Of a DNA stretch of 64,000 nucleotides, positions 48 through 20,769 are shown piece by piece; within the stretch, counting starts at the first letter, position 1, and every line of letters starts with the position of its first letter. The notes beneath the pieces are model-generated. The model was not told the DNA's origin. It did no database searches and worked only from the letters and a program-made list of their open reading frames with translations. The stretch lies in assembly GCF_004210215.2 (NCBI RefSeq), contig NZ_CP067394.1, positions 2,232,001 through 2,296,000 of the forward strand, in the 5' to 3' direction. The DNA is from Cryobacterium sp. SO1 (lineage in GTDB: Bacteria; Actinomycetota; Actinomycetes; Actinomycetales; Microbacteriaceae). The position numbers and the translations under genes are program-made.

Positions 48-81
48 CCTTCAACGCGTCTGTCAAAAAACGCGTTGAAGG
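48..81. repeat. Perfect 12-bp hairpin ending at a cassette-junction motif
   Basis: CCTTCAACGCGT (48-59) and ACGCGTTGAAGG (70-81) are exact inverted repeats around a 10-base A-rich loop. The right arm runs into the 13-bp junction motif at 73-85. The outer ends (TTCAAC / GTTGAA) resemble the RYYYAAC/GTTRRRY ends of integron attC sites, but the other junctions here lack such a partner arm. Confidence 0.6.
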
Positions 82-85
82 TTCC
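73..85 (+). repeat. Junction motif 1, CGTTGAAGGTTCC
   Basis: First of a series of same-orientation 13-mers (consensus CRCTNAASGTTCC) lying between gene units of the island. It precedes the minus-strand membrane-protein unit at 134-364. Confidence 0.5.
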
Positions 86-133
86 GCTCGTGGGCATTTG
101 TCGTGATTGTCTCCACGGTCCGAGATTCGCGCG

Positions 134-364
134 CTATGGGCGAGCTCGGAAACTCAGGACTGACCGATTTCGGCCACTTTCCTCACTGTCCCAAGGGCCA
201 CACGTAGATAGAGCTACGAGGGCGAGGCCTACCAATAGGAGCCAAACGTAGGCCCATGATGTCGTCAGCACCAACTGAATAATTCCGGTCATCACAGCGA
301 AACTACCGACGCTGAAAAGCGCTCGCGTAACCATCCAGCTGAACAACCCGTGCTTAGGTCTCAT
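134..364 (-). CDS. Small putative two-helix membrane protein (76 aa)
   Basis: The product has two hydrophobic stretches (about residues 17-35 and 39-54) separated by a short turn, and a charged hydrophilic C-terminus. I recognise no family. It stands alone between junction motifs at 73-85 and 430-442, as a one-gene unit on the minus strand, like the other very small membrane proteins of this island (1953-2195, 4953-5195, 14765-14998, 15772-15966). Coding status rests on the clear membrane-protein composition and its fit between the two motifs; there is no homology that I can name. Confidence 0.45.
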   Translation of the reverse strand: MRPKHGLFSWMVTRALFSVGSFAVMTGIIQLVLTTSWAYVWLLLVGLALVALSTCGPWDSEESGRNRSVLSFRARP

Positions 365-429
365 CTGCCCACTCTACGCAAACCGCACGCGAACCCAGCG
401 AGCAAGGGTTGCATCGACCAAATGTGCCG

Positions 430-442
430 CGTTGGGCGTTCC
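430..442 (+). repeat. Junction motif 2, CGTTGGGCGTTCC
   Basis: Same-orientation junction 13-mer, 66 bp upstream (on the minus strand) of the small membrane gene and 25 bp before the start of the kinase-like gene at 467. Confidence 0.45.
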
Positions 443-466
443 GCATTCAGCCCTTACGTTGGGGGG

Positions 467-1213
467 ATGGATGAAGAGGTTCTGGCCGGGGGAAACTCGA
501 GCACGGTCGTGCGGGTAGGCGACACCGTTCACCGCCCCACCGGACCTTGGACTCCCGCGGTACATCAACTTATGAGCACACTCCGCGCGGCGGGCGTGAC
601 GGAAGTGCCTGAGCCTCTTGGCCTGGACGACGAGGGCCGCGAAGTGCTCTCCTACCTTCCGGGAGTAGTCGGCAACTACCCAATGCCCAGCTGGATCTGG
701 TCGCCCACGATCCTGCACGAGGCTGGCTCTTTGCTTCGACGGGTTCATGACGCCAGCGCGCCACTCGCGCACACGGCCGCCATATGGCAGCTGCCTGCGC
801 ACGAGCCAATCGAGGTGGTGTGCCTGAATGACGTCGCACCGTACAACATGGTCTTCCAAGACGGGCACATCACCGGTCTCATCGACGTCGACATGGCCTC
901 CCCCGGGCCTCGGATTTGGGACCTCGCCTACCTCGCATATCGGCTCGTCCCGCTCGGCGAGTACGCAGACCCTGACGCTCCGGACTGGGATGCTCGCCCC
1001 GGCCGGCTCGATGCGCTCATCCGCGCCTATGGCTATGGGTTCGACCAGGCTGCCGTTCTTCGGGCGGCAGCGGACCGCATGGAGGATCTTGCCGTTTTCA
1101 CGGATCAACGTGCGGCCGACACGGGTCGCAATGATTTCCTGGAGCATGCCGCCCAATACCGACGCGATCGCGACCGACTTGTCGAAATGATCGCACGCCC
1201 GTGGGCCTCGTGA
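467..1213 (+). CDS. Aminoglycoside phosphotransferase (APH)/choline kinase-like protein
   Basis: A 248-residue kinase-like protein of the APH family, which phosphorylates small molecules such as aminoglycosides, homoserine or choline. The catalytic loop reads LNDVAPYN, with the Asp and Asn of the family's HxDxxxxN motif but Leu in place of the usual His. It is followed by LIDVDMASPGPRIWDLAY, carrying the metal-binding Asp. I chose ATG 467 because it follows a run of six G (461-466); an in-frame start at 350 would add 39 non-conserved residues and cross junction motif 2. The stop overlaps the next gene by 4 bases (GTGA), so the two are translationally coupled. Substrate, and any resistance phenotype, cannot be told from sequence. 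Confidence 0.8.
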   Translation: MDEEVLAGGNSSTVVRVGDTVHRPTGPWTPAVHQLMSTLRAAGVTEVPEPLGLDDEGREVLSYLPGVVGNYPMPSWIWSPTILHEAGSLLRRVHDASAPLAHTAAIWQLPAHEPIEVVCLNDVAPYNMVFQDGHITGLIDVDMASPGPRIWDLAYLAYRLVPLGEYADPDAPDWDARPGRLDALIRAYGYGFDQAAVLRAAADRMEDLAVFTDQRAADTGRNDFLEHAAQYRRDRDRLVEMIARPWAS

Positions 1214-1806
1214 ACGCGGATATCCAGGTAGTCCAAGTCAACGATCCACGCCTGCAGCACCTGACCGAGGCGGGTTACGTCGTTGTCGGCGAATCATGGG
1301 GTGCCCGCCTTCGCCTGAGTGATCCACCCGACCTGACTGTGCTGAACGCGGCAGTCGTCGCGGCAACGGACCAAGGATTCCTGATCGAGGAACTCGGCGC
1401 CAGCTGGGCGCCTCAGGTCACGGCCCTTGAAGCCTTGAACCACGCCGACTACCCGTACACGCCAGCGACAGCAGCACCGCATCGCGACGAGTCCGACCTA
1501 CGCGAACTGTGGAGATCCGGATGCCGCCTATTCGGCGCAATCAACGACGGGCAACTCGTGGCCGTCAGCACCATACGGCTGACTACCGCGCGAGCAGAAA
1601 CCGAATTCACTTCCGTCCACCGCTCCTGCCGCCGCAGAGGGCTCGCCGTTGCTGTCAAGGCCGCATCGATCACGGCGTTGGCTAACGACGGCGTCAGGAT
1701 CTTCGGCACGGGTGGTGCTCAAATCAACACCGGCAGCATCCGCATGAATGAACATCTCGGCTATGCCATCGAAGAACGATGGCTCAGCCTCACGATGCCG
1801 AAATAG
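1210..1806 (+). CDS. GNAT-family N-acetyltransferase
   Basis: A 198-residue acetyltransferase whose C-terminal half holds the acetyl-CoA loop (SCRRRGLAVAVKAAS) and the downstream INTGSIRMNEHLGY segment typical of GNAT folds. GNATs move acetyl from acetyl-CoA to an amine; the acceptor is unknown. The start GTG at 1210 overlaps the TGA of the kinase-like gene. The N-terminal 90 residues look like a degenerate second GNAT half. A junction motif lies 17 bp after the stop. Confidence 0.8.
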   Translation: MNADIQVVQVNDPRLQHLTEAGYVVVGESWGARLRLSDPPDLTVLNAAVVAATDQGFLIEELGASWAPQVTALEALNHADYPYTPATAAPHRDESDLRELWRSGCRLFGAINDGQLVAVSTIRLTTARAETEFTSVHRSCRRRGLAVAVKAASITALANDGVRIFGTGGAQINTGSIRMNEHLGYAIEERWLSLTMPK

Positions 1807-1822
1807 CCCAAGAACGCACGCC

Positions 1823-1835
1823 CGGAGAAGGTTCC
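1823..1835 (+). repeat. Junction motif 3, CGGAGAAGGTTCC
   Basis: Lies 17 bp after the GNAT stop and marks the left edge of the duplicated 419-bp unit. It differs from motif 8 (7085-7097) by one base. Confidence 0.5.
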
Positions 1836-1952
1836 CCTGAAACCGAATTGGCAAGCACGCTCTCCGAGGTGCAGGGAGGGCGAACGGCCGCCAGCGTGCG
1901 AGCCGCGCACGTCGATTTCGCCAGCACCTCCGCCTTGGCGAGGAAGGCAGGC

Positions 1953-2195
1953 CTATGAGCCGGTGGGCGTGTCTTCGTTCGAAACGAGCGCTTTGATGAC
2001 GGATGCCACGGCAAGAACCGTTCCGGCTAGCAAGCCGCCCCAGCCAAGGAATTGCTCAACCAGCGTCGGGGAAGTACCCAGGTCATCGACGCGGATTCCC
2101 GTGTTCACAAGGAAGATGGCCGCGCTCAACGCGATCAGAACTCCGATGATCAAACCAATGATGCTGCCTCTTCTGCTGCGCATGTGATGATCCAA
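1953..2195 (-). CDS. Small two-helix membrane protein, paralogue A (80 aa)
   Basis: It encodes 80 residues: a basic start (MDHHMRSRRG), helix 1 at about 12-30 (IIGLIIGVLIALSAAIFLV), a polar segment, helix 2 at about 48-68, and an acidic tail. Paralogue B at 4953-5195 differs mostly by conservative changes (R/K, I/V, D/E, A/V). That is the pattern expected of a translated gene under purifying selection. No family is recognised. It sits alone in a short unit between junction motifs 3 and 4. Confidence 0.7.
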   Translation of the reverse strand: MDHHMRSRRGSIIGLIIGVLIALSAAIFLVNTGIRVDDLGTSPTLVEQFLGWGGLLAGTVLAVASVIKALVSNEDTPTGS

Positions 2196-2245
2196 TCAGT
2201 TTTCGCGACTCTATCGTCTCGAACACGGGAGTCGCGTTGTCTTCG

Positions 2246-2258
2246 CACTTAGGGTTCC
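2246..2258 (+). repeat. Junction motif 4, CACTTAGGGTTCC
   Basis: Right edge of duplicated unit A. It lies 51 bp from the gene start at 2195, the same distance as in copy B, and homology between the copies stops here. Confidence 0.55.
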
Positions 2259-2547: not shown

Positions 2548-2555
2548 CCGAGAGT
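2548..2555. repeat. Target-site duplication CCGAGAGT (left of IS256 copy 1)
   Basis: The 8-bp CCGAGAGT abuts the left IS end and recurs at 3982-3989 on the right, the duplication length expected for IS256-family transposition. Confidence 0.95.
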
Positions 2556-3981
2556 GGTTACGTCCCCGTGAGTGGTGTGGTTTCCCGCTCTTGAGTGTTG
2601 CTTCGTCAACGTGAAGAGCCACCGTGGGATGGTCAGTGAGAACCGATCAAAGCTACTCACAGAAAGACACAAACCACGATGGCTCTAGACCAGTCTGCCC
2701 TGCTCGACCTGCTGGGAGAACTCAAACTCACCGATGTCACCGATCGCATCCGATCCGCGACCGAAAAGCTCTACCAAGAACTGATCGATGCGGAAGCGAC
2801 CGCGTTCATCGGCGCCGCCCCGTTCGAGCGCTCCGGCGACCGCACCACCCACCGCAACGGCACCCGATCCAGGACGTTGACGACCACCGCCGGCGACCTC
2901 GACCTGAAGATCCCGAAGCTCCGTGCCGGGTCGTTCTTCCCTGCCCTGCTCGAGCGGCGCCGACGGGTCGACCAGGCGTTGTTCGCGGTCGTGATGGAGG
3001 CCTACGTCCACGGCGTCTCAACCCGCAAAGTCGACGACCTGGTCAAGGCCCTCGGCGCGGACACCGGGATCTCCAAGTCCGAGGTGTCTCGGATTTGCGC
3101 GGGCCTGGACGCGGAGGTGGCCGAGTTCCGCGACCGCACCTTGGCCGCCCAGGACTTCCCCTACGTGTTCCTCGATGCCACCTACTGCAAAGCCCGGGTC
3201 GGCCACCGGATCGTGTCCCAAGCCATCGTCGTCGCGGTCGGGGTCGCCGCCGACGGCCGCCGGGAAGTACTGGGCTTCGACGTGGGTGACAGCGAGAATG
3301 AGGGCTTCTGGACGTCGTTTCTACGGTCGCTCAAGACCCGCGGTCTCGACGGGGTCAAGCTGGTCATGTCTGACGCCCACACCGGGCTCAAGAAGGCCAT
3401 CAGCACCGTGTTCCAAGGCGCCGGGTGGCAGAGATGCCGAGTCCATTTCATGCGCAACGTCCTCGCCGTGATCCCGAAAGGATCCCAGGACATGGTGGCC
3501 TCGATCATCCGCACCATCTTCGCCCAACCCGACCGTGAGCACATCGAGAAGCAGTTCCGCGAGGTCACCACCATGCTCGCCCGGTCACACCCGAAGGTCG
3601 CCGCGATGCTCGTCGACGCGCAACCCGACCTGCTCGCCTTCGCCGCGTTCCCGCGGCGGCACTGGCGCCAGATCTGGTCCACTAATCCGTTGGAACGGGT
3701 GAACAAGGAGATCAAACGCCGCACCGACGTCGTCGGCGTGTTCCCCAACGCCGCCGCGCTGCTGCGCTTGGCCGGGTCGGTGTTGATCGAGCAGCACGAC
3801 GAGTGGGAAGCCGGCGAAAGACGCTACTTCTCCGAGGCCTCGATGCTCGAGCTGGCCACCATGAACAATCCCATCGAGGTCATAGACGAGGCGGTGATCC
3901 TCCCAGAACTCGCCGCCGCCTAGACTAGAACCACTGACCCGCACGGTGTTGAGAAATTCCACCACTCAGCGGGACGTGACC
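2556..3981 (+). mobile_element. IS256-family insertion sequence, copy 1 (1426 bp)
   Basis: Ends are imperfect inverted repeats: GGTTACGTCCCCGTGAGTGG on the left and GGTCACGTCCCGCTGAGTGG (reverse complement of the right end). An 8-bp duplication CCGAGAGT flanks it. It carries one transposase gene and interrupts the minus-strand gene 2414-4378. A near-identical inverted copy lies at 16210-17635. Confidence 0.95.
2679..3923 (+). CDS. IS256-family (mutator-type) transposase
   Basis: This 414-residue DDE transposase catalyses cut-and-copy movement of the element. Visible catalytic blocks are FLDATYCKARVG (first Asp), VMSDAHTGLKKA (second Asp), the family CRVHFMRN (C-x-x-H) signature and NPLERVNKEIKRR (Glu). 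Full length for the family. Copy 2 differs at one residue seen here (A versus S in TTML[A/S]RSHPK). The start ATG follows an A-rich leader inside the IS left end. Confidence 0.95.
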   Translation: MALDQSALLDLLGELKLTDVTDRIRSATEKLYQELIDAEATAFIGAAPFERSGDRTTHRNGTRSRTLTTTAGDLDLKIPKLRAGSFFPALLERRRRVDQALFAVVMEAYVHGVSTRKVDDLVKALGADTGISKSEVSRICAGLDAEVAEFRDRTLAAQDFPYVFLDATYCKARVGHRIVSQAIVVAVGVAADGRREVLGFDVGDSENEGFWTSFLRSLKTRGLDGVKLVMSDAHTGLKKAISTVFQGAGWQRCRVHFMRNVLAVIPKGSQDMVASIIRTIFAQPDREHIEKQFREVTTMLARSHPKVAAMLVDAQPDLLAFAAFPRRHWRQIWSTNPLERVNKEIKRRTDVVGVFPNAAALLRLAGSVLIEQHDEWEAGERRYFSEASMLELATMNNPIEVIDEAVILPELAAA

Positions 3982-4434: not shown

Positions 4435-4447
4435 CAACAGGCGTTCC
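4435..4447 (+). repeat. Junction motif 5, CAACAGGCGTTCC
   Basis: Same-orientation 13-mer, 57 bp upstream of the split gene's start (4378) and before the lipoprotein-like ORF. Confidence 0.4.
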
Positions 4448-4693: not shown

Positions 4694-4952
4694 AATGAGA
4701 TTCTATGGGCGACGAGTAACCCCACCCCGAGACGGTAGGCGATCGTTACGGGGCTCGACCGCACTTCGAATCTTGCCGGGCAGCAATCGATGCACCTGGC
4801 CCGATTCCCTCCCGGCACGCCCCAAACAGAGTTCGATTAAAACCGAATTGGCAAGCGCTCTCTCCGATGTGCAGGGAGGGCGAACGGCCAACAGCGAGTG
4901 AGCCGCGCACGTCGATTTCGCCAGCACTTCCGCCTTGGCGAGGAAGGCAGGC

Positions 4953-5195
4953 CTATGAGCTGGTGGTCGTGTCTTCGTTCGAAACGAGCACTTTGATGAC
5001 GGATGCCACTGCAAGGGCCGTTCCGACCAGCAAGCCGCCCCAGCCAAGGAATTGCTCAATCAGCGTCGGGGAAGTACCCAGCTCATCCACGCGGATTCCC
5101 GTGTTCACAAGGAAAATAGCCGCGCTCAACGCGACCAGAACTCCGACGATCAAACCAATGATGCTGCCTCTTTTGCTGCGCATGTGATGATCCAA
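4953..5195 (-). CDS. Small two-helix membrane protein, paralogue B (80 aa)
   Basis: Same length and layout as the protein at 1953-2195: basic N-terminus, hydrophobic helices at about 12-30 and 48-68, acidic tail ending TTTSS instead of TPTGS. The nucleotide divergence, with conservative residue changes, says that this is not a just-made duplicate and that both copies have been maintained. Function unknown. Confidence 0.7.
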   Translation of the reverse strand: MDHHMRSKRGSIIGLIVGVLVALSAAIFLVNTGIRVDELGTSPTLIEQFLGWGGLLVGTALAVASVIKVLVSNEDTTTSS

Positions 5196-5245
5196 TCAAT
5201 TTCCGCGACTCTATCGTCTCGAACACGGGAGTCGCGTTGTCTTCG

Positions 5246-5258
5246 CACTCAGGGTTCC
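5246..5258 (+). repeat. Junction motif 6, CACTCAGGGTTCC
   Basis: Right edge of duplicated unit B, 51 bp from the gene start. It is followed by sequence unrelated to that after motif 4. Confidence 0.55.
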
Positions 5259-5293
5259 GCTACTGCTCGGCCGTGATGAGCAACCTCAGCAGG

Positions 5294-5809
5294 TCATCGG
5301 AGAGTGACACGTGGCGCACCCGGAGAATTCCACCTGAAGAGGGTCAGATGCCACAGCCCTGGGCGTTTGCGCGAAGGATCGACGAGGCCATTCGCTCCAA
5401 GGGCTTCCAACCGCCGGCGGACCTGCCACGAAGAGGGTTCGCCTCCGGTTTTCACGATGTCCTGCCAGGGCGCGACTGCGTCCGCAAGGTCGATACCGGC
5501 TGCGAGGAGGACTGCCGGGTCGCGCAAATCGACGATGCTATGGGCCTCCACGCGAAATTCCAGCAAGACGAGCTCGGCGACACGACCTTGGGTATGAGCG
5601 ATCATCGCCGCGTCGACTCCCTGAGGAGATGAGCTCAGGTACAGCGTCGGTTGAGACGGTTCCGAGTACCTGCCTGCAAGGCGCGAACCCAGAATTGCCG
5701 TGTCCTGGTGTGAGGGATCTACGGCGCGATAGAACGAGCCGGAAATGCTGGACCAGACATCGCCAACTTGTACCACCGAGGGTTCACCCCACACTGATTC
5801 GCTCCCCAC
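5294..5809 (-). CDS. Solitary RES-domain protein
   Basis: A 171-residue RES-domain protein, recognised from FYRAVDPS, the GRYSEPSQPTLYLSSSPQGV block, the VDLRDP segment and the conserved C-terminal GANGLVDPSRKRPGLWHL stretch. RES domains form the toxin half of Xre-RES (MbcT-type) toxin-antitoxin systems, which degrade or transfer NAD. Here no Xre-type antitoxin gene is adjacent: the neighbour on the same strand is a GNAT whose stop lies 13 bp upstream. It may be an orphan enzyme of the family rather than a toxin. Confidence 0.7.
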   Translation of the reverse strand: MGSESVWGEPSVVQVGDVWSSISGSFYRAVDPSHQDTAILGSRLAGRYSEPSQPTLYLSSSPQGVDAAMIAHTQGRVAELVLLEFRVEAHSIVDLRDPAVLLAAGIDLADAVAPWQDIVKTGGEPSSWQVRRRLEALGANGLVDPSRKRPGLWHLTLFRWNSPGAPRVTLR

Positions 5810-5822
5810 GACAGCCCACCGC

Positions 5823-6248
5823 CTATCCTGCGCTATTCAAGACCATCAGCTTGTGCGGGTCTGGGGCCGACACGAATCCCACTTGTTCGTAGAGGCCGTG
5901 AGCGTCGAGCGTCGAAAGAAGCACTCGTTTGAGTTGCATCGGCGTCAACCTGTCCACCACCGCTTGAGCGAGCAACCGGCCGAGACCGCGGCCTCGGAAC
6001 TCACGGTCAACGTACACGTCGCATAGCCAAGCAAACGTCGCATGGTCGGTGACAACCCGGGCGTACCCGCACAGGACACCCGTGCCGCTGAAGAGGCCAA
6101 AATTCAACGAGCCCTCGGCCGAGCGCTCAACGGTTTCCAAGGACCGCCCGAGCGCCCAGAACGCATCGGTAGAAAGCCAGCGGTGAACCGTGAGCAGGTC
6201 GATTCGGCTCAGGTCGGTGTCAACGGAGAAGTCGTCTTTCACGGGCAT
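5823..6248 (-). CDS. GNAT-family N-acetyltransferase
   Basis: A 141-residue single-domain GNAT. The acetyl-CoA binding loop is VDREFRGRGLGRLLAQAVVD, followed by a C-terminal LYEQVGF strand typical of the fold. I start it at MPVKDDFSV; upstream in-frame codons to 6290 are possible but not GNAT-like. It ends 13 bp before the RES gene start on the same strand, so the two may be co-transcribed. Acceptor unknown. Confidence 0.8.
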   Translation of the reverse strand: MPVKDDFSVDTDLSRIDLLTVHRWLSTDAFWALGRSLETVERSAEGSLNFGLFSGTGVLCGYARVVTDHATFAWLCDVYVDREFRGRGLGRLLAQAVVDRLTPMQLKRVLLSTLDAHGLYEQVGFVSAPDPHKLMVLNSAG

Positions 6249-6409
6249 AACTCCACGATAACTGTCATCCAACGGGCGTCCGCAAGACAACTCGCAGCGA
6301 CTCGACGCGTGCGCTCTGCTTGTCTAACAACCGCGTCGCTGCTGACGGTCCCGTTGGAGGTTCATCTCCCGGAACGAAATCAAGCGGCCGAGCCGGCAAG
6401 ACGATGCAA

Positions 6410-7015
6410 TTACTGGAGGGAGAATTCCCGCGTGGCCAAGGAGTGCCGAAGGCCCACACGCACGGCAGGCCATTCACTGGCCGTAATAGAGAAAATGACG
6501 GTGTCGCGGAGTGCACCGTCCGGTCCAACTGAGTGACTGCGCAGCACTCCATCTTCCTTTGCGCCCAAAGCAGCTATTGCCTTTCGTGATTGGCGGTTGT
6601 GCCAGTGAGTGCGAAACTCGACGGCAATGCAGTCCAAAACGTCGAAAGCGTACGTCAGTTGGAGGAGCTTGGCCTCTCGGTTCGCGCCCGTACCTTGAGC
6701 GCTTCTCGCCAGCCAAGTGGAGCCGATTTCTAATCGCGGCGCATCGGTGCTCGGGTTCATAAAGGTCGTCATGCCGACGATCCGCCCTGTTGACGCGAGC
6801 CGAGTGGCCCATGGCAGCATTTTTCCCTGCTCGTGGAGGCCGAGTCGGCGTTCAACCTCCGCGGTCATCGCCTCGGGGTGCGGTATTGATGTGTACCAAG
6901 CACGCCAGAGTTCTCCTTCGTTCGCAGCTTCACGAAGCTCGGCTACGTGATCGAAAGACAGGGGCTCAAGGGTTACGAGCGATCCTGAGAGCGTGGGCGA
7001 TTCTGATAGATGCAT
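6410..7015 (-). CDS. RimJ-type GNAT acetyltransferase
   Basis: A 201-residue protein of the RimJ/RimL-like subfamily: the N-terminal LSGSLVTLEPLSFDHVAEL opening, the ARSAQGTGANREAKLL acetyl-CoA loop and HWHNRQSRKAIAALGAKEDGVLR. Such enzymes acetylate protein N-termini or small amines. Single-gene unit, with the 13-mer CGGAGGAGGTTCC 70 bp beyond its start. Confidence 0.85.
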   Translation of the reverse strand: MHLSESPTLSGSLVTLEPLSFDHVAELREAANEGELWRAWYTSIPHPEAMTAEVERRLGLHEQGKMLPWATRLASTGRIVGMTTFMNPSTDAPRLEIGSTWLARSAQGTGANREAKLLQLTYAFDVLDCIAVEFRTHWHNRQSRKAIAALGAKEDGVLRSHSVGPDGALRDTVIFSITASEWPAVRVGLRHSLATREFSLQ

Positions 7016-7084
7016 GGTCCGACACTATGGCAGCCGGAAACCTAGTGCGTTTCGGTCGGCATGCGTCGCACCAGGGGCTGAACC

Positions 7085-7097
7085 CGGAGGAGGTTCC
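7085..7097 (+). repeat. Junction motif 7, CGGAGGAGGTTCC
   Basis: Lies between two GNAT genes. It is one base different from motif 3 at 1823-1835. Confidence 0.45.
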
Positions 7098-7167
7098 TCG
7101 GTGGCACCGAATCGCTGGCGCTGGAGCTAGCCGAGGAACGCCCCCTATGGGCGCCCGGTGATGTGCG

Positions 7168-7674
7168 ATGCTGTGCGAAATGGATGTCATTACTGAACGT
7201 TTGGTTCTTCACGCTCTCTCTTCCGTTGAGGCTGAGCGGATTGTCAACCGGGCGCCCAACGAGGATGACCTGTGGCACGAGGATTATCCGCTCGAAGACG
7301 AGCTTGATCCATTGCGGAGTCTGGCGGATTCACTCGACGCCCACCCTGCCTTCACTCTGTACATGATTCAACGGGTCGAGGACCGGCGCGCAATTGGCGG
7401 CATCGGCTTCTTCGGTGCACCGGGTGCAGACGGAGTGGTCGAACTGGGCTACGGACTCGTCCAACCCATGCGAGGACTTGGCCTGGCGACGGAAGCATTA
7501 CTGGCGGCGATCACCATTGCCGCGACCTACGGCGCACTGCGAGTCAAAGCAGACACTGCGGTCGACAACATCGCCTCCCAGCGCGTACTCGCCAAAGCAG
7601 GGTTCCTCGAAACTTCCCGGTCAAGTGCGGACATCTATTACGCGCTCGAGCTGAGGCGCGAAACGCAGATTTGA
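7168..7674 (+). CDS. GNAT-family N-acetyltransferase
   Basis: A 168-residue GNAT with the TERLVLHAL opening of the RimJ-like group, the acetyl-CoA loop LVQPMRGLGLATEALLAA and the DNIASQRVLAKAGF segment that commonly follows. The start may instead be Met5 (7180); neither has a strong ribosome-binding site. A junction motif lies 36 bp after the stop. Acceptor unknown. Confidence 0.8.
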   Translation: MLCEMDVITERLVLHALSSVEAERIVNRAPNEDDLWHEDYPLEDELDPLRSLADSLDAHPAFTLYMIQRVEDRRAIGGIGFFGAPGADGVVELGYGLVQPMRGLGLATEALLAAITIAATYGALRVKADTAVDNIASQRVLAKAGFLETSRSSADIYYALELRRETQI

Positions 7675-7709
7675 CCGGAGGAGACGCTAGCCGTTCGATC
7701 GAACAAGCG

Positions 7710-7722
7710 CGCTAAACGTTCC
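7710..7722 (+). repeat. Junction motif 8, CGCTAAACGTTCC
   Basis: Identical to the motif at 14554-14566; the identity extends two bases to the left. Downstream, 7723-7761 can fold as a GC-rich hairpin (CGCCGGC...GCCGGCG). Confidence 0.55.
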
Positions 7723-7792
7723 CCGCCGGCCCCGTGCGACGGGCCCAGCGAGCCGCGCCGGCGATTGTAAGCGAAGTAGCCAGACTGTTGTC

Positions 7793-8389: not shown

Positions 8390-8535
8390 CGATGAACGGC
8401 CTCTCGCCCTGCCTGCCATTCTTCGTGTGACACCTGGCCGACGAACCTAGACAATCCCTCAGGGCCGTGACGGGTGGACGCGCCGAACTATCGGGGCTCA
8501 GGTTGTTCGCGTGGACGGGCGAGCGTTCGGGGCAT

Positions 8536-12393: not shown

Positions 12394-13044
12394 CTGCTTC
12401 CTGGTTCCTTCCGGCGCGACCGCTTGGCAGTAGCTACGCCGTAAGGAACCTATCTGGGGGTGGCGGGCCCATGTCTCCAGCTCACTGAAGAGGGCCTCGG
12501 CCACCGGTGATCTCAATCTCTGCGACTTCCCCAAATCCAAGGTCTGGGAGGGGAATCGACTGGCCTGATTCTTAGCGCTCTTTTGGCAGGAAACCGGCCG
12601 CTAACTTGGCAGGATTCCAGTGCTGAAACGGCCTACAAAGAGTTGATCACACACAGTAGTCGGTGAACCGGGCGGCGTAGGCCTGAGCAATCGACTTCTG
12701 CAGAACAGAAGACGCCGCCAGCTTGTCGGGGTCGTCGAGTAGATCGGCGGGCTCCCAGCTGGTCAGCAGGGTCGTGGCCTTCCACCAGCGTTCGCGGTGG
12801 TCGGTGCTCTGAGCCTCGGCGGGCTCGATCAGGGCGATGGAGGCAAGCTTGCCGAGGTGATAGCTGATGGTACCGGGAGCCTCATCAACGACGTCTCCGA
12901 GCTGGGCGGCGGTCAACGGGCCGCGTTCGCGAAGCAGGCCGAGCAGACGCAACCGGGTCGGATGCGCGAGGACCCGCATGGAGGCAGCCGAGCTGAGCGT
13001 GGTGCGTGAGGCGTCGCGGGGGGTCATACCGATGACCCTATAAG

Positions 13045-13088
13045 AACAACAGTTATTGCGCAACGATTGTTGCGCAATAACTGTTGTT
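13045..13088. promoter_or_regulatory. Perfect palindromic operator between regulator and phosphatase genes
   Basis: AACAACAGTTATTGCGCAAC (13045-13064) is repeated exactly inverted at 13069-13088 around the spacer GATT. Each arm carries its own TTGCGCAA palindrome. It lies 18 bp upstream of the ArsR-type start and 31 bp upstream of the divergent phosphatase start, so it is well placed to control both. Binding by this regulator is inference. Confidence 0.75.
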
Positions 13089-13118
13089 TGATCTTTCTCC
13101 CGCTCCTAAGCTGAGTCC

Positions 13119-13856
13119 ATGGTCAACGAGGCGGAACATGAGGGCAGGGCTCTTCGGGTCGACGGTTTGGTGAACGCACGCGATCTCGGTGGCCTCCCCC
13201 GACAAAATGGAGCACTGACTCCGAGAGGCGTTTTCTTCCGTTCCGAGAATGTCGACTGGGTTACCCCGGCGGGATGGAACCAGATGCGTGAGGCCGGCAT
13301 CCGCACCATCGTCGACCTCCGCCAGGCAGGAGAACGGGCGCGGGACACCCAGCCGCGGCCCGATTGGCTGACCACTCTCACAGTCGATCTGGACGGCCTC
13401 GATGATGCCGTCTTCTGGAAGGACTTCTGGAGCAATGGGCTCAGCGGCACGGCCCTGTACTTCTTGCCGCATCTTGAGGCGATGCCCGAGCGTAGCGTCG
13501 CTGTCCTGTCCGCGTTGGCCAGCTCGCCAGAAGGAGGAGTTCTCTTCCATTGCATGGGCGGAAGAGATCGAACCGGACTCATCGCGATGCTGCTTCTGAC
13601 TGCCATTGACACGGAACCGGACGCCATCGTCGACGATTATCTCGAAACAGTCAGACTGGCCCATCTTCGAGCGGCAACATCGAATCGGAACAACGCTGAA
13701 CCCGAGATCGAGGCGTTGTGTCAGACCTACGGCACGACAACAGAGGGCGCATTTCGCTCAGCACTTCTCGGCCTCGACCTGGAAGGGCTCCTCGCCTCAT
13801 CTGCGCTCAGCGACGTCAACAGGGCTGCCGTCACGAGCTGGCGAGGCTCCGTCTGA
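13119..13856 (+). CDS. Tyrosine/serine protein phosphatase (DSP-like, MptpB-type)
   Basis: A 245-residue phosphatase of the family that includes mycobacterial PtpB. The P-loop is FHCMGGRDRTGL (HCx5R, about residue 143), with the general-acid region upstream and the N-terminal NARDLGG motif typical of this branch. It would hydrolyse phospho-tyrosine, phospho-serine or phosphoinositides. It is divergent from the split ArsR gene and shares its palindromic operator. A junction motif starts 21 bp after the stop. Confidence 0.85.
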   Translation: MVNEAEHEGRALRVDGLVNARDLGGLPRQNGALTPRGVFFRSENVDWVTPAGWNQMREAGIRTIVDLRQAGERARDTQPRPDWLTTLTVDLDGLDDAVFWKDFWSNGLSGTALYFLPHLEAMPERSVAVLSALASSPEGGVLFHCMGGRDRTGLIAMLLLTAIDTEPDAIVDDYLETVRLAHLRAATSNRNNAEPEIEALCQTYGTTTEGAFRSALLGLDLEGLLASSALSDVNRAAVTSWRGSV

Positions 13857-13876
13857 CCCGGGTGCACGACATGACG

Positions 13877-13889
13877 CACTGAGCGTTCC
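13877..13889 (+). repeat. Junction motif 9, CACTGAGCGTTCC
   Basis: Same-orientation 13-mer, 21 bp after the phosphatase stop. Confidence 0.5.
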
Positions 13890-13954
13890 GCTTGCGCGTG
13901 TCCATCTCGGCTTTGCCCTGCGGCGACGCCAACCAGCGATAGCGAAGAAAAGGC

Positions 13955-14425
13955 TCAGTCGAGCTTCTTGAGCATCTTCACCGAAGTTGTCTCGTAGCCG
14001 AGGGACTCGTAAAGCCCCCTGGCCCCGGTGTTGAATCCGAAGACGCTTAGGCCGAGAGAGTGCGCACCCTGTGTGCGTGCATATTCCTCGCCGAGCAGCA
14101 TCGCCGTTCTCCCATAACCCTGGCCACGCTGGTCAGCGTTGATGAGAACGTCCCAGACCCACCACGCTCCCGGATCGGTGGTGACATCCTGCCCGATCCA
14201 CAGATATCCGACTGCCTCATCAGCCTCGTTCATGACGTGAAAGACCTCATTGCCAGGGTTCTGAGTACCATCCGGGAACGAACGAGCCATGCTCTCGACC
14301 GCTATGCGCCGAGCTTCCTCGTGTGATCGGCCCTGGGCAAGCAAATCACCGACGTACTCGGCACAGCTTTGGTCGATCCACGTTAGGAAATCGCTGGTGT
14401 GGATTCGCTGAAGGGTTACGGTCAT
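13955..14425 (-). CDS. GNAT-family N-acetyltransferase
   Basis: A 156-residue GNAT with acetyl-CoA loop INADQRGQGYGRTAMLLG and the late GLYESLGYE strand. The N-terminal part resembles the acetyltransferases that open with MTVTLQRI...FLTWIDQSCAEYVGDLL. Single-gene unit between junction motifs at 13877 and 14554. Acceptor unknown. Confidence 0.85.
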   Translation of the reverse strand: MTVTLQRIHTSDFLTWIDQSCAEYVGDLLAQGRSHEEARRIAVESMARSFPDGTQNPGNEVFHVMNEADEAVGYLWIGQDVTTDPGAWWVWDVLINADQRGQGYGRTAMLLGEEYARTQGAHSLGLSVFGFNTGARGLYESLGYETTSVKMLKKLD

Positions 14426-14553
14426 CGCTCAATTCTTCCAGGCCGAGCCGTCGGGTTGCACGGACAGAGCGGGGACGGGCAGGAGTGGCTTGAACTATTG
14501 CCATGGCTGCGCCCATGAGGTCGTTGTTGCCCTGACTGGCTCCTGATCTGTCG

Positions 14554-14566
14554 CGCTAAACGTTCC
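14554..14566 (+). repeat. Junction motif 10, CGCTAAACGTTCC
   Basis: Identical to 7710-7722. It separates the GNAT unit from the small membrane-protein unit. Confidence 0.55.
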
Positions 14567-14764
14567 TGCGTGGGCCGGCTGGGATGAGTTGATTACCAAA
14601 ACTCCGAAGGCAAACCTCTCAAAGTGGCGGATCACCCTGCAGGGACAGTACATCTGCCATGGCACGGGTGGCGTCATCGAACCTGTTTGGGATCTCGAAA
14701 CCACCCGACCGGTGGTATCGACATGGACAATGCTAACCAAGCTTTGCAATCCGTAGGAGGAACT

Positions 14765-14998
14765 ATGTCTCAGCAACGTCTCGGCTTCATCATTGGTGGC
14801 GCCGTCACCGCAAGCGTCGGAGTGCTTCTGCTAATCGGAGGGTTCGTCGCCTTCTCGATACTCGTTGCATCTGCCGAGGGCAGCGACTCAAGCGGGGACG
14901 GCACCTTCGCGGTGACGGCGTTTGTTATCGGCGCAGCGGCTGCCGTGATCGGGCTCGTGCTGCTCATCGCAGCGCTAATCCGCCAGCACCGCGGATGA
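14765..14998 (+). CDS. Small two-helix membrane protein (77 aa)
   Basis: The ATG at 14765 follows a strong ribosome-binding site (AGGAGGA, 14755-14761), which fixes this start over upstream in-frame codons. Two hydrophobic helices (about residues 7-28 and 46-68) flank a Ser/Gly/Asp-rich loop (AEGSDSSGDG). No family recognised. A junction-like 13-mer lies 20 bp after the stop. Confidence 0.65.
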   Translation: MSQQRLGFIIGGAVTASVGVLLLIGGFVAFSILVASAEGSDSSGDGTFAVTAFVIGAAAAVIGLVLLIAALIRQHRG

Positions 14999-15017
14999 CT
15001 GCGCGCCACCGGATCTC

Positions 15018-15030
15018 GTCCCGAACGGTT
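15018..15030 (+). repeat. Junction motif 11, CCCGAACGGTTCC
   Basis: Weaker match, 20 bp after the small membrane gene. Confidence 0.35.
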
Positions 15031-15256
15031 CCGGGAACTGGGCGTGCCTAAGCCGCGACATGACACCGGACGCGCCTGTCGACGCGAGTGTCGCTGGGTT
15101 ATGACGTAACTCAAACATGGGTATTCGTGAAACACCGCGGAGCATGCCGGGGAAGCGGGCCACCCAGCAATTGGTGGCCGCTTCTGAATTCCTAAAGCGG
15201 ATCGCTTGTACCCATAAATTCTCAGTGGGTTGTTCGAAGATTATTCTTCAGAAGTT

Positions 15257-15775
15257 ATGGCAGGTCTCACGGTGGGCGCCGATTTCGATGCCGATGCCGC
15301 CCTCTACGCCAATGGCACCATCGATCTGAACGAGTTCGGCCGGCGAATTCGTGCCCGTAATCGCCATGGCTAGATTCGTAGACCCGTATCTCGATAGGGC
15401 AACCGGACATGATCGGCGCTGCACGAACCATTCGCCTCCCGATGCACACCGTGGAGAAGCTCAACAAGATCAAGCGCATCCGCAGCGACCTCACCGGCAC
15501 CCTGCACCACGAACCCACCCTGGCGGAGCTGGCCGAGGCCTGCCAGTCTCCGATGACCGACGTGCGGGCCTTGCTCGACTGGGACGTCGAACCAATCTCA
15601 AATCAGACTCCCCTCGGCGAGGGATTGGCCGACATCTCCGAGCTGATCATGGACGACGACCTGCCCCAGCCAGACGAATACGCGACTCAGGCCCTGCGCC
15701 GGTCTGACATCACGTTCTATCTCGACGCGCTGCCCACACGGGAGCGAACTATCTTGGAGGCCCGGTTCGGGTTAC
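15257..15775 (+). pseudogene. Remnant of a group-1/2 sigma-70 factor
   Basis: A short N-terminal piece (15257-15370, DLNEFGRRIRARNRHG then stop) and a longer piece from about 15400 match a primary-like sigma factor: GAARTIRLPMHTVEKLNKI is the end of region 2 and start of region 3, and LPTRERTILEARFGL opens region 4. The DNA-melting part of region 2 is missing between them. The region 4 helix-turn-helix is cut off exactly at the stop codon of the convergent membrane gene, so at least two rearrangements have occurred. The preceding 15031-15256 holds nothing that I can support. Confidence 0.7.
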
Positions 15776-15966
15776 TTATGCGGATGAGCGCTCGTTGTTC
15801 GCTTCTTACGCAGCACAACGACGAGCGCTCCCCCGATGATGAGCAGGCCACCAACCGCGCCGAGTAGTCCAAGCGGCACGCTGGTCGACAGATACGCACC
15901 ACCTGCGATCACGAATGCGACGCCGATCAAGGCCAGGACACCCTGGACGACTAATGTTTCGCGCAT
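15772..15966 (-). CDS. Small two-helix membrane protein (64 aa)
   Basis: Starts MRETLVVQGVLALIG after an AGGAG-type site. Two hydrophobic helices fill about residues 6-27 and 31-51; the tail is basic (LRKKRTTSAHPHK). Its stop codon marks the break point of the sigma-factor remnant on the other strand. The upstream 15967-16209 contains no gene that I can support; a degenerate junction-like ACGTAGACGTTCG lies at 16047-16059. Confidence 0.6.
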   Translation of the reverse strand: MRETLVVQGVLALIGVAFVIAGGAYLSTSVPLGLLGAVGGLLIIGGALVVVLRKKRTTSAHPHK

Positions 15967-16201
15967 GAGCGAGCTCCTGAATCGCGAGGTTGAGTTGCAC
16001 TTGAGTGACAGCCTCGCACAGGCTCATGCCGCCGGGCAGCGATTCCACGTAGACGTTCGTCCATTGCCTAGGTAGAACCGGAGTGTTTGAGCCTGGACGT
16101 CACGCGCAATGACTGCAACACTCGAGTCATGTTTCTTCGATAAGCGCGCAAATCCATGTCGACAAATCGACCTAGCCACTTGTCTGAATTGAGGAACACT
16201 G

Positions 16202-16209
16202 TCATGACC
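16202..16209. repeat. Target-site duplication TCATGACC (left of IS256 copy 2)
   Basis: Repeated exactly at 17636-17643, where it contains the ATG of the downstream GNAT gene. Confidence 0.95.
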
Positions 16210-17635
16210 GGTCACGTCCCGCTGAGTGGTGGAATTTCTCAACACCGTGCGGGTCAGTGGTTCTAGTCTAGGCGGCGGCGAGTTCTGGGAGGATCACCGC
16301 CTCGTCGATGACCTCGATGGGATTGTTCATGGTGGCCAGCTCGAGCATCGAGGCCTCGGAGAAGTAGCGTCTTTCGCCGGCTTCCCACTCGTCGTGCTGC
16401 TCGATCAACACCGACCCCGCCAAGCGCAGCAGCGCGGCGGCGTTGGGGAACACGCCGACGACGTCGGTGCGGCGTTTGATCTCCTTGTTCACCCGTTCCA
16501 ACGGATTAGTGGACCAGATCTGGCGCCAGTGCCGCCGCGGGAACGCGGCGAAGGCGAGCAGGTCGGGTTGCGCGTCGACGAGCATCGCGGCGACCTTCGG
16601 GTGCGACCGACTGAGCATCGTGGTGACCTCGCGGAACTGCTTCTCGATGTGCTCACGGTCGGGTTGGGCGAAGATGGTGCGGATGATCGAGGCCACCATG
16701 TCCTGGGATCCTTTCGGGATCACGGCGAGGACGTTGCGCATGAAATGGACTCGGCATCTCTGCCACCCGGCGCCTTGGAACACGGTGCTGATGGCCTTCT
16801 TGAGCCCGGTGTGGGCGTCAGACATGACCAGCTTGACCCCGTCGAGACCGCGGGTCTTGAGCGACCGTAGAAACGACGTCCAGAAGCCCTCATTCTCGCT
16901 GTCACCCACGTCGAAGCCCAGTACTTCCCGGCGGCCGTCGGCGGCGACCCCGACCGCGACGACGATGGCTTGGGACACGATCCGGTGGCCGACCCGGGCT
17001 TTGCAGTAGGTGGCATCGAGGAACACGTAGGGGAAGTCCTGGGCGGCCAAGGTGCGGTCGCGGAACTCGGCCACCTCCGCGTCCAGGCCCGCGCAAATCC
17101 GAGACACCTCGGACTTGGAGATCCCGGTGTCCGCGCCGAGGGCCTTGACCAGGTCGTCGACTTTGCGGGTTGAGACGCCGTGGACGTAGGCCTCCATCAC
17201 GACCGCGAACAACGCCTGGTCGACCCGTCGGCGCCGCTCGAGCAGGGCAGGGAAGAACGACCCGGCACGGAGCTTCGGGATCTTCAGGTCGAGGTCGCCG
17301 GCGGTGGTCGTCAACGTCCTGGATCGGGTGCCGTTGCGGTGGGTGGTGCGGTCGCCGGAGCGCTCGAACGGGGCGGCGCCGATGAACGCGGTCGCTTCCG
17401 CATCGATCAGTTCCTGGTAGAGCTTTTCGGTCGCGGATCGGATGCGATCGGTGACATCGGTGAGTTTGAGTTCTCCCAGCAGGTCGAGCAGGGCAGACTG
17501 GTCTAGAGCCATCGTGGTTTGTGTCTTTCTGTGAGTAGCTTTGATCGGTTCTCACTGACCATCCCACGGTGGCTCTTCACGTTGACGAAGCAACACTCAA
17601 GAGCGGGAAACCACACCACTCACGGGGACGTAACC
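16210..17635 (-). mobile_element. IS256-family insertion sequence, copy 2 (1426 bp, inverted)
   Basis: Same length and ends as copy 1 at 2556-3981 but in reverse orientation, flanked by the 8-bp duplication TCATGACC. Only a few base differences from copy 1 are visible. The two copies bracket 12.2 kb as inverted repeats. Confidence 0.95.
16268..17512 (-). CDS. IS256-family (mutator-type) transposase
   Basis: A 414-residue DDE transposase, identical to that of copy 1 apart from a Ser/Ala difference near residue 305. FLDATY, MSDAHTG, CRVHFMRN and NPLERVNKEIKRR are all intact, so it should be active. Expression runs away from the neighbouring GNAT gene. Confidence 0.95.
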   Translation of the reverse strand: MALDQSALLDLLGELKLTDVTDRIRSATEKLYQELIDAEATAFIGAAPFERSGDRTTHRNGTRSRTLTTTAGDLDLKIPKLRAGSFFPALLERRRRVDQALFAVVMEAYVHGVSTRKVDDLVKALGADTGISKSEVSRICAGLDAEVAEFRDRTLAAQDFPYVFLDATYCKARVGHRIVSQAIVVAVGVAADGRREVLGFDVGDSENEGFWTSFLRSLKTRGLDGVKLVMSDAHTGLKKAISTVFQGAGWQRCRVHFMRNVLAVIPKGSQDMVASIIRTIFAQPDREHIEKQFREVTTMLSRSHPKVAAMLVDAQPDLLAFAAFPRRHWRQIWSTNPLERVNKEIKRRTDVVGVFPNAAALLRLAGSVLIEQHDEWEAGERRYFSEASMLELATMNNPIEVIDEAVILPELAAA

Positions 17636-17643
17636 TCATGACC
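17636..17643. repeat. Target-site duplication TCATGACC (right of IS256 copy 2)
   Basis: Exact copy of 16202-16209. Bases 17638-17640 are the GNAT start codon. Confidence 0.95.
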
Positions 17644-18126
17644 TTGCATATCCGCGATGCTTCAGCCGAGGACATCGATTTTCTCGCTGCAATGCTGCTG
17701 GAAGCAGCTAACTGGCGCCAGGACCGGCAGACTGCGACTCTGCAATCGATCATGAATACCCCCGACCTGTGGCACTACCTCTCCGACTGGAAACGGAGCT
17801 CAGATTTCGGTTTCCTTGCACACGAGGCGGACAAGCCGGTCGGTGCCGCGTGGGCGAGGTTCATGACCGCCGAAGATCCCGGATATGGATTCGTTGACGA
17901 GGACATCCCCGAGCTGGGCATGGGCGTAGTGAGCACTCATCGAGGCCGGGGCGTGGGCCGCGTTCTTCTTGAGCAGACCATACGAGCCTCAGCGGATCGT
18001 GGCCTCCGGGGACTGAGCTTGAGTGTCGAGGATGAAAACGAGCGAGCCCGCGCTCTATATGTGAGCAACGGATTCGTGGTCGCGGGACGAGCCGGCAATT
18101 CGGACACGATGCTCTTAAGGTTTTGA
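17638..18126 (+). CDS. GNAT-family N-acetyltransferase, IS at its start codon
   Basis: A 162-residue GNAT with the loop VVSTHRGRGVGRVLLEQTI and the ENERARALYVSNGFVVAG segment. ATG 17638 is the natural start: the empty site, rebuilt by removing the IS, reads GAGGAACACTGTCATGACC, with GAGGAA as ribosome-binding site. The insertion has moved that site and the promoter 1.4 kb away, leaving only IS-end bases (GGGGACGTAACC) in front of the ATG. The coding frame itself is complete. A junction motif starts 3 bp after the stop. Confidence 0.85.
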   Translation: MTLHIRDASAEDIDFLAAMLLEAANWRQDRQTATLQSIMNTPDLWHYLSDWKRSSDFGFLAHEADKPVGAAWARFMTAEDPGYGFVDEDIPELGMGVVSTHRGRGVGRVLLEQTIRASADRGLRGLSLSVEDENERARALYVSNGFVVAGRAGNSDTMLLRF

Positions 18127-18128
18127 CC

Positions 18129-18141
18129 CGCTGAAGGTTCC
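18129..18141 (+). repeat. Junction motif 12, CGCTGAAGGTTCC
   Basis: Near-consensus 13-mer, 3 bp after the GNAT stop. Confidence 0.55.
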
Positions 18142-18277
18142 CTTGCGACACTCGACGAGCTCCATCCTGGGAAGGCGACTTTTGCGCTCGACCTGCGTCG
18201 CTGACCGTCCGTCTTTCGGGACACGCAGGAGACGACACTCCCGGCACGGCTCCCCGGCCTGCGTACACGCTCATGGC

Positions 18278-18562
18278 ATGAGCCAAGTGCGCCTGAGTGG
18301 TCAACTCGTCTGCCGCGATCGGGCCCAGACGGCCGTAGCGCTGAGCCTCTTTCGGATCACGTCGAACGAACGCGTGCGGACCCGGGAGCCCGGGTGCATC
18401 TCATTCAGTGTCGCCTCGACCGTCGATCCCATGGTGTGGCAGGTCGACGAGTGCTTCCAGGACAGTTCTGCGCTCAAAGCACACCAGGACCACGTTGCGG
18501 GAAGCGACTGGGGACGGGTCACAGCCGGGATCGAACGTCGCTACGCGATCCACGGGCTCTAG
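18278..18562 (+). CDS. ABM-type putative monooxygenase
   Basis: A 94-residue antibiotic-biosynthesis-monooxygenase-fold protein (putative quinol monooxygenase). Family marks are VRLSGQLVCRD, REPGCISFSVAST, WQVDECFQDSSALKAHQ and SDWGRVTAGIERRY. Such small dimeric ferredoxin-like proteins oxidise quinols or act as aldehyde/quinone detoxifiers, usually without cofactor. Start MSQVRLSG is chosen because the upstream in-frame extension is Arg-rich and unlike the family. Confidence 0.8.
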   Translation: MSQVRLSGQLVCRDRAQTAVALSLFRITSNERVRTREPGCISFSVASTVDPMVWQVDECFQDSSALKAHQDHVAGSDWGRVTAGIERRYAIHGL

Positions 18563-18614
18563 TCACCCCACATTGCCCCACCTTGGGCTGCCGGTACGAG
18601 AACTACGGTGCTAC

Positions 18615-19040
18615 CTAGCGGAGCGCCTCGACCAACTGAAACCGCTCCAGCACGACGAGCGTTTCGTCATCGAGTGTGAAGTCTGGATTATTGAGGAAGT
18701 CACGCATCTCCGCGCTGTGCCAGAAGGCTTCATGACCGCGCCGCCAGGCGGCTACGGAGTCGAATCCTTCGCCCTCATCGCGCGCATGCTCGAGGCCGAC
18801 GTCAGCAAGTCGGACTATCTCGACCGCAACCGTCTGGATGATCGCCACCGCGGCATCGTTTGAATCCACAACCGTCTGCCTATACCCGACGATCGGCAAC
18901 TGTTCGTCCTCTACCGAAAACTCCACGAAAGTCGAGCTGGTGGAGGTCTTCTGGCCGGCCAGAATTGCGGCGATCAGACGATCCCGAAGCGGGCCTGGAA
19001 AGCCGAACTCAGCAATCGGGAATTCACCGTGGTTGGTCAT
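18615..19040 (-). CDS. ASCH-domain protein
   Basis: A 141-residue ASCH-fold protein, related to the PUA superfamily and proposed to bind RNA; some members are amidohydrolases acting on N4-acetylcytidine. Recognisable parts are GFPGPLRDRLIAAILAGQKTSTSS, the central VDSNDAAVAIIQT strand region and EGEGFDSVAAWRRGHEAFW. It is complete. Single-gene minus-strand unit, with a junction motif 38 bp beyond its start. Confidence 0.8.
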   Translation of the reverse strand: MTNHGEFPIAEFGFPGPLRDRLIAAILAGQKTSTSSTFVEFSVEDEQLPIVGYRQTVVDSNDAAVAIIQTVAVEIVRLADVGLEHARDEGEGFDSVAAWRRGHEAFWHSAEMRDFLNNPDFTLDDETLVVLERFQLVEALR

Positions 19041-19077
19041 GAAGTGATCCTAGGTGCCGAGGCACGAACCCCTGAAC

Positions 19078-19090
19078 CCCAAGGCGTTCC
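19078..19090 (+). repeat. Junction motif 13, CCCAAGGCGTTCC
   Basis: Last member of the series, 15 bp from the 3' end of the recombinase gene. Confidence 0.4.
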
Positions 19091-20752: not shown

Positions 20753-20769
20753 CTGACCTTTACTATCGG

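Follow-up and report, generated by a model that had tools for sequence, protein, structure and literature searches.

The window analysed here is a stretch of 64,000 nucleotides (bases 2232001-2296000) of the 4.07-Mb genome of Cryobacterium sp. SO1, a member of the Microbacteriaceae. It carries one end of a 37-kb array of genes, several of them for GNAT proteins, that are separated by a recurrent junction motif (Table 1). The array extends about 18 kb to the left of the window, to about 2213806, and sits in a 75-kb tRNA-Ala island, the far end of which is marked by a perfect 36-bp copy of the 3' end of tRNA-Ala(GGC) at genome 2177297-2177332. An earlier note on this DNA had listed 13 copies of the motif, all in the same orientation, and had taken them for the edges of gene units in a possible cassette system.

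The junction site is a dyad of about 30 bp around GTTC or GTCC, with the core GTTCS or GTCCS. Over about 122 sites the motif reads CC[C G N T G A R S G T T C S]NCTTNCGG (a separate alignment, drawn from 70 sites, left out 16 of them). In the following, sites are named after their central dinucleotide, mostly TT and in a second class TC. The sequence to the right of GTTCC had been described as variable, which is only partly right, since the right arm has a weaker CTTNCGG.

The window was scored with a profile of 37 columns, for which 188 TT sites from 17 arrays of other genomes were used. These training sites were collected with a profile seeded from the window's sites; the test therefore does not depend on the letters of the window, although it does depend on how the motif was first chosen. 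GTTCC was found where the earlier note had placed it in 12 of the 13 sites, eight of which (73, 430, 1823, 2246, 5246, 13877, 14554 and 18129) scored 12 or more and four (4435, 7085, 7710 and 19078) between 6.0 and 9.5. Position 15018 fails as a site by its score of -7.4; its GTTCC is displaced by 2 bp (starting at 15028), in a context that does not match the motif. Despite its weak score, 19078 is a real unit border, because the ASCH-domain unit ends there in several genomes. A strong site at 6352 (score 19.8) had been overlooked, and a TC site is found at 18199.

Scanning the island and its right flank with this profile at a score of at least 10 gave 17 plus-strand sites and no minus-strand site between 2213500 and 2251100, one plus and two minus sites in the other 36 kb of the island, and none in the 44.8 kb of the right flank; sites under the stated thresholds are left out of all counts. 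A looser pattern had 97 matches in the whole genome, with 11 forward and 1 reverse within the 37-kb array, where about 0.8 were expected. In other arrays the plus:minus ratios at a score of 12 were 19:0, 19:2, 16:1, 14:0 and 14:2, although here the profile had been trained on those same arrays. The earlier note had cautioned that some members of the series might be chance matches; 15018 alone fails, and for the series as a whole chance is excluded by the strand ratio of 17:0 together with the empty flank.

Table 1. Junction sites, gene units and other features at the array end of the window (window coordinates; site scores from the other-genome profile)
Feature	Position	Strand	Support
Junction site, centre TT, with a one-off perfect hairpin	73..85	+	Profile 19.6
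Junction site, centre TT	430..442	+	Profile 20.3
Unit: APH-family phosphotransferase (open reading frame (ORF) 350-1213, start uncertain) and GNAT (1201-1806), ends in site 1823-1835	443..1835	+	Pfam; site 12.5
Cassette with small ORF (1953-2195, -), ends in site 2246-2258	1836..2258	+	92% copy at 4840-5258; homologues in G322, G304
IS256-type insertion (Transposase_mut)	2556..3981	+	Pfam; 99.4% inverted copy at 16210-17635
Weak junction site, centre TT	4435..4447	+	Profile 8.5
Second copy of the 1836-2258 cassette, ends in site 5246-5258	4840..5258	+	Site 17.1
Unit: RES-domain protein (5294-5809, -) and GNAT (5823-6290, -), ends in site 6352-6364	5259..6364	+	Pfam; site 19.8
GNAT cassette (6410-7015, -), ends in site 7085	6365..7097	+	Pfam; 93% homologue in G325
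GNAT cassette (7168-7674, +), ends in site 7710	7098..7722	+	Pfam; site 7.8
Unit: GNAT (7793-8389), MFS (8536-9822, -), ArsR-type regulator (12647-13063, -), tyrosine phosphatase (13119-13856), ends in site 13877	7723..13889	+	Site 20.8
IS21-type insertion (IstB, Mu-type transposase) within the MFS unit; G325 copy without it	10060..12656	-	Genome comparison
GNAT cassette (13955-14425, -), ends in site 14554	13890..14566	+	Homologous G300, G325 units start at site
Unit: small ORF, sigma-70 region 3 ORF, IS256 copy (16210-17635), GNAT (17569-18126), ends in site 18129	14567..18141	+	
Type-A 70-bp spacer between TT site 18129 and second-class TC site 18199-18211	18142..18211	+	
ASCH-domain cassette (18615-19040, -), ends in site 19078	18212..19090	+	Right border same to 1 base in G300, G325, G326 and at 2225412
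Tyrosine integrase of the tRNA-Ala island	19106..20434	-	Position; flanks of relatives
tRNA-Ala(GGC), island attachment site	20768..20842	-	36-bp copy at 2177297-2177332

We could observe that copies of the units end at the sites, both within the island and between genomes. In two duplicated units of the island both copies stop at an identical base of the site: the cassette at 1836-2258 recurs at 4840-5258 (92%), and the ASCH unit at 18583-19090 has a copy at genome 2224917-2225424 (86%). Homologues of the 1836-2258 cassette in genomes G304 and G322 end at query positions 427 and 428, one to two bases short of the border at 429, and those of the ASCH unit in G300, G325 and G326 end at 520-522, the border being at 521. 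The G325 homologue of the cassette at 6365-7097 has its right end at the site in both genomes and its left end at the site in the window only. Further, shorter homologous matches in other genomes stop before the unit border.

Over 18 arrays we collected 126 cross-genome homology blocks of at least 150 bp. Their ends fell within 15 bp of a site centre in 68 cases on the left and 58 on the right, with 36 blocks having both ends there; random placement gave 6.4 on average and never more than 14 in 200 draws. The commonest offsets were +1 to +3 for right ends and -2 to 0 for left ends, which places the exchange within GTTC. Block ends no more than 6 bp from the centre belonged to TT sites in 114 cases, to TC sites in 15 and to others in 8; TC sites are therefore borders too, but below their share. 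Three changes of neighbours were found between arrays: one is a clean indel, joined in G303 at a site at which G330 has 6.2 kb more, one is the IS21 insertion of the window, and one is off-site. In the 18 arrays the ORFs run both ways (268 plus, 248 minus), and the sites of each array face one way. The comparison of genomes thus bears out the earlier idea that the motif marks unit edges and that the units behave as cassettes, since block ends cluster at the motif. The checks that the earlier note had named as able to refute it turned out in its favour, with no site at a score of at least 10 in the 44.8-kb flank and with block ends at the motif, and by these sequence comparisons the region is nearly certainly an array of mobile gene cassettes.

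At the first array site, a stretch of about 105 bp is 85-94% conserved in three genomes (reverse-complement coordinates G325:C83 22212-22316, G304:C35 31085-31189 and G326:C4 16-120), although the genes that lie further left are not the same ones (dnaE2-like in G325). This element is a candidate for an attI-like anchor.

Over 270 sites, the two arms of the dyad match each other most closely at positions 2, 3 and 9-12, counted from the centre, and diverge at others. When the centre was masked, the array strand of the 18 arrays gave 212 TT, 58 TC and 55 other sites (at most 8 of any one kind), and the opposite strand gave 107 AA and 29 GA, largely the same sites seen from behind. The arms are thus nearly symmetric, and the direction of a site rests mainly on the central dinucleotide. 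Passages of PMC9943657 and PMC4817059 describe that cleavage by small serine recombinases gives 2-base overhangs at the centre, and that mismatched core bases prevent ligation in the recombinant orientation. A dyad of about 28-30 bp with its direction set by the central 2 bp is a layout that fits this enzyme class.

TT and TC sites also occur in pairs. Within 130 bp, a TT site was followed by a TC site 29 times, at distances of 58-60 bp (7), 68-70 bp (18) or 82-83 bp (4), while the reverse order was seen just twice; many TT sites have no TC partner. The spacers are of several unrelated sequence types, as judged by eye, and the steps of about 11 bp in the spacing suggest helical phasing. The 70-bp TT-TC element had also been considered as an attC made up of a left and a right simple site, which was rejected on folding and on the positions of block ends.

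Arrays of this kind are not confined to the window. Across 57 Cryobacterium genomes the number of profile matches (E-value of at most 10) ranged from 7 to 117, the lowest genomes (7-13 matches) being taken as background. Arrays were present in fetched regions of 17 other Cryobacterium genomes, which had been selected for having matches; two further fetched contigs (G332:C93 and G314:C29) had few sites only. Three further genera also have arrays, in five genomes: g77 (G139, G076, G277), g84 (G084) and g7 (G089). Six regions of these five genomes, again selected for matches, contained 32 TT and 34 TC sites on one strand, the G089 array being nearly TC-only (15 of 16 sites). Counts were raised in a further genus, g3, in the family screen, where the best 24 candidates per genome were scored and counts are lower bounds. 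The window's own genome has a second small array at 1402668-1410775 on the minus strand (L398), which contains both TT and TC sites, among them one pair at a distance of 70 bp. Scanning the genome collection with an ideal 20-mer found at least 118 stretches, compared with about 120 estimated by chance, and a plasmid search with window positions 1-2600 gave a single 48-bp match, at the IS256 end.

A resolvase-like serine recombinase of 194 amino acids recurs inside the arrays, where it is carried as a cassette. It has the motifs GYARVS and LDRLARS, intact copies exist in other genomes, and its closest solved relatives are the Gin invertase (1.7e-29) and gamma-delta resolvase. At an E-value of 1e-40 the family is found in 26 of the 57 Cryobacterium genomes. 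Genomes with it have a median of 40.5 profile matches (minimum 20, n=26) versus 14 in those without (n=31; Mann-Whitney p = 2e-8), while other serine-recombinase candidates correlate with the site count only at rho 0.26, and at -0.15 among genomes lacking the family. Two serine recombinases that adjoin the arrays of G322 and G325 share only about 33% identity with the array family and were not considered further.

The recombinase gene lies at fixed distances from sites. We fetched 30 of the 55 recombinase matches in Cryobacterium, of which 28 were readable, and in 25 of these an array-type site lay at -72, near -150 or between +608 and +640, counted from GYARVS. The centre was TC in 8 of 8 cases at -72 and 7 of 7 near -150, and TT in 11 of 13 near +618. 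By hand count, 71 sites at the readable loci face one way and 9 the other. In distant Actinobacteria, 11 of 19 scorable homologues have the same dyad 118-172 bp upstream (scored within 220 bp), with the centre TT, AT, GT or AC, as opposed to none of 11 serine recombinases that fall outside the family by sequence; this scoring took 60 of 82 serine-recombinase loci, the rest being without a readable start or too short. At two of these loci (L365 and L366) neither arm has the Cryobacterium form, yet the two match each other, as a true dyad requires. There are few or no other sites around the homologues in distant genera.

In two genomes, G474 and G372, the recombinase adjoins Mu-type integrase and AAA transposition genes, in G474 together with a pyridine nucleotide-disulphide oxidoreductase; because of these neighbours, the ancestor of the family was likely a transposon resolvase. 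A database search with the recombinase found at least 7737 proteins at an E-value of at most 1e-40 among the best 7999 candidates scored. The ratio of nonsynonymous to synonymous substitution rates (dN/dS) was 0.015-0.15 in 30 printed pairs from 13 loci picked as intact, indicating selection on the protein.

The window's genome has no match to this family at an E-value of 1e-40. Broken pieces of the family recombinase lie at about 1411711-1411967, beside the second array (about 1.403-1.411 Mb), and match the query L326 at 84% over 55 residues, 94% over 18 and 71% over 14. The window's array is thus an orphan, without an intact recombinase in its own genome, comparable to the clusters of attC sites lacking integron-integrases (CALINs) of integrons.

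We consider it very probable that the region is a cassette array joined by direct-repeat core sites of about 30 bp that belong to a resolvase-type small serine recombinase, and the recombinase found in the arrays is likely their enzyme. The array, its directional sites, the borders clustered on the site centre, the dyad with two main centres and the in-array recombinase at fixed distances from sites can be read from the DNA itself. In the proposed mechanism, recombinase dimers would bind the dyads, two sites that share their central dinucleotide would synapse, and both would be cut at the centre with a stagger of 2 bases. The exchange would excise the cassette between direct repeats or, less often, insert a circular one. 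A TT site followed by TC at 58-60, 68-70 or 82-83 bp would be a composite, perhaps helically phased site, and such composites may act in the control of synapsis or constitute a second compatibility class. The recombinase itself would travel as a cassette, and arrays without an intact copy, as in the window, would be orphans that need the enzyme in trans, or fossils.

Several points weigh against this interpretation. Half of the block ends (126 of 252) lie away from any site, and blocks with a common cassette are not independent of each other. Resolvases normally delete, which leaves insertion unexplained, and cassettes whose ends are unlike, one TC and the other TT, are not accounted for by a single exchange and need two steps. 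The window's genome lacks an intact family member, as do the array-rich genomes G324, G346 and G141 at an E-value of 1e-40, and in other genera the family recombinase was seen in only one of six inspected regions (G084, 88%). Among distant homologues, 8 of 19 have no dyad that could be scored, and not all of the 11 with a dyad are independent, since L361/L362 and L365/L366 are near-copies. The recombinase also shares the place of most recurrent gene with a GNAT and one other ORF, each present in 5 of 18 arrays, and the association at the genome level could mean that it is merely cargo.

We regard it as rather probable, with clearly less confidence, that the arrays are a second, convergent kind of integron in several Microbacteriaceae genera, in which a cassette-borne serine recombinase both excises and inserts, and the central dinucleotide (TT, TC, AT) is an address code that separates cassette pools. 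The nearly TC-only array of G089 and the mixed TT/TC arrays elsewhere would be such separate pools.

Two of the points above, the array-rich genomes without the recombinase and its tie with the GNAT cassette, would also be expected if the array were real but the serine recombinase a frequent passenger, with another enzyme working the sites. We consider this unlikely, as the distant homologues have the same upstream dyad though few or no other sites surround them, and as the site layout fits the small serine recombinase class.

It is very unlikely that the units are Xer-type modules, in which the host XerC and XerD would recombine dif-like sites between them. Such modules are known in Acinetobacter, according to parts of PMC12907356, and the array dyad, about 30 bp long with inverted arms, is similar in size to an 11-6-11 dif-like site. 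However, its variation is concentrated in the central 2 bp and not in a 6-bp spacer, the arms are unlike the dif half-sites given in those parts of PMC12907356, and in other taxa the serine recombinase is preceded by this same dyad. Xer genes would moreover be expected with or without arrays.

A divergent integron, in which a tyrosine integrase (IntI or the island integrase) recombines folded, attC-like single strands, would agree with the mostly single-gene units, with the hairpin at the first site and with the tyrosine recombinase gene 15 bp past the last site. The perfect 12-bp hairpin, the ends of which the earlier note had likened to attC ends, is real but exceptional. The sites generally do not fold like attC: over 18 sites the pairing with the own upstream arm scored 10.56, compared with 10.16 +- 0.43 after permutation (382 of 2000 permutations reach it), and over 70 sites the mean folding z was -0.29 and -0.26, against -0.47 at 60 random array positions, so that there is no signal over the control. 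Folding of the attC type was rejected on these two tests, and the sites are instead double-stranded dyads with two main 2-bp centres. The integron core is GTTRRRY, from which GTTCS or GTCCS differs.

Nor does the neighbouring tyrosine recombinase, to which the earlier note had linked the series, appear to belong to it. By its position this gene is the integrase of the tRNA-Ala island. Relatives occur in 54 of 299 genomes of the family, and none of 29 that were fetched with 1.5-kb flanks had more than one motif match nearby. Of seven contigs from other genomes (five with clear arrays; draft assemblies, some cut off), six had no PF00589 tyrosine recombinase and the seventh had one more than 100 kb from the array. 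An IntI-type integrase beside the array was rejected, as the gene there is the island integrase by position and passes no NCBIfam cut-off, although no genome-wide search with an IntI model was made. We therefore regard the divergent integron as largely refuted and give it hardly any probability. Least probable of all is a conserved non-mobile element, such as a terminator or regulatory site, with block ends from ordinary intergenic recombination: the sites are mostly intergenic and the island holds several transposases, but block ends cluster on the site centre, array sites face one way while ORFs face both, TT and TC sites are paired at a fixed 59, 70 or 82 bp, and the motif is absent from the tested flank.

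Some other features of the surroundings may be mentioned. The G300 array, too, ends near the same tRNA-Ala region (G300:C68, reverse-complement 60642-60764, 94% over 123 bp), without an integrase there. Left of the window, at genome 2225.8-2231.6 kb (L032 13814-19619), a 5.8-kb operon far above normal cassette size lies between two array sites; by appearance only, it encodes a solute-binding protein, an ABC ATPase, a permease, a phosphodiesterase-like protein and a LacI-type protein. The sigma-70 region 3 ORF at 15409-15867 is isolated and probably a gene fragment. Triplets of neighbouring tyrosine recombinase genes occur at genome 2179-2182, 2897-2899, 3724-3726 and 4037-4040 kb, with identical scores in two pairs, as in three-recombinase (RIT-like) elements.

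Integrons are the textbook case of storage and shuffling of single genes in bacteria. Like them, the arrays described here are rows of mostly small accessory-gene cassettes with head-to-tail sites and a probable crossover within a conserved core, there are orphan arrays without an enzyme, and GNATs are among the cargo. Unlike integrons, which use a tyrosine integrase, folded attC sites and an enzyme fixed beside attI, the arrays are tied to a serine recombinase family that is carried as a cassette, have double-stranded dyads, and contain genes in both orientations.

Partial similarities exist with three other systems, as far as passages of the cited papers describe them. The Xer (dif/pdif) modules of Acinetobacter also form islands bounded by short dyad recombination sites, but there C/D and D/C sites delimit the modules and the enzyme is the host XerCD (PMC12907356), whereas here one-way sites have a class-specific 2-bp centre. 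The res sites of Tn3/Tn5053-type elements share the small serine recombinase and a crossover dyad, perhaps also with further subsites, but res resolves cointegrates within one element, while many array sites flank unrelated genes (PMC9943657, PMC7765201). Hin/Gin-type systems use the same enzyme superfamily, with direction set by the central bases, but their sites are inverted and serve inversion, in contrast to the direct repeats of the arrays, which would give gain or loss of cassettes (PMC4817059). Among top-ranked titles and abstracts of the open-licence literature (subscription papers and preprints being outside this scope), we found no account of serine-recombinase cassette arrays or of Cryobacterium cassettes, in agreement with the statement of the earlier note that no system with this core had been described.

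The first observation was thus real and important, but the likely machinery was misassigned; the enzyme that would fit is a small serine recombinase absent from the window. These cold-loving bacteria of soil and ice appear to keep single genes in long swappable rows, much as integrons do but on a different enzyme class. If this is true, the cassette strategy has evolved more than once, with the same layout on an unrelated class of enzyme. It would give access to a large store of unread accessory genes in Actinobacteria and add a recombinase and a set of sites with distinct compatibility classes. It also makes directly testable whether a resolvase-type enzyme can insert cassettes besides deleting them.

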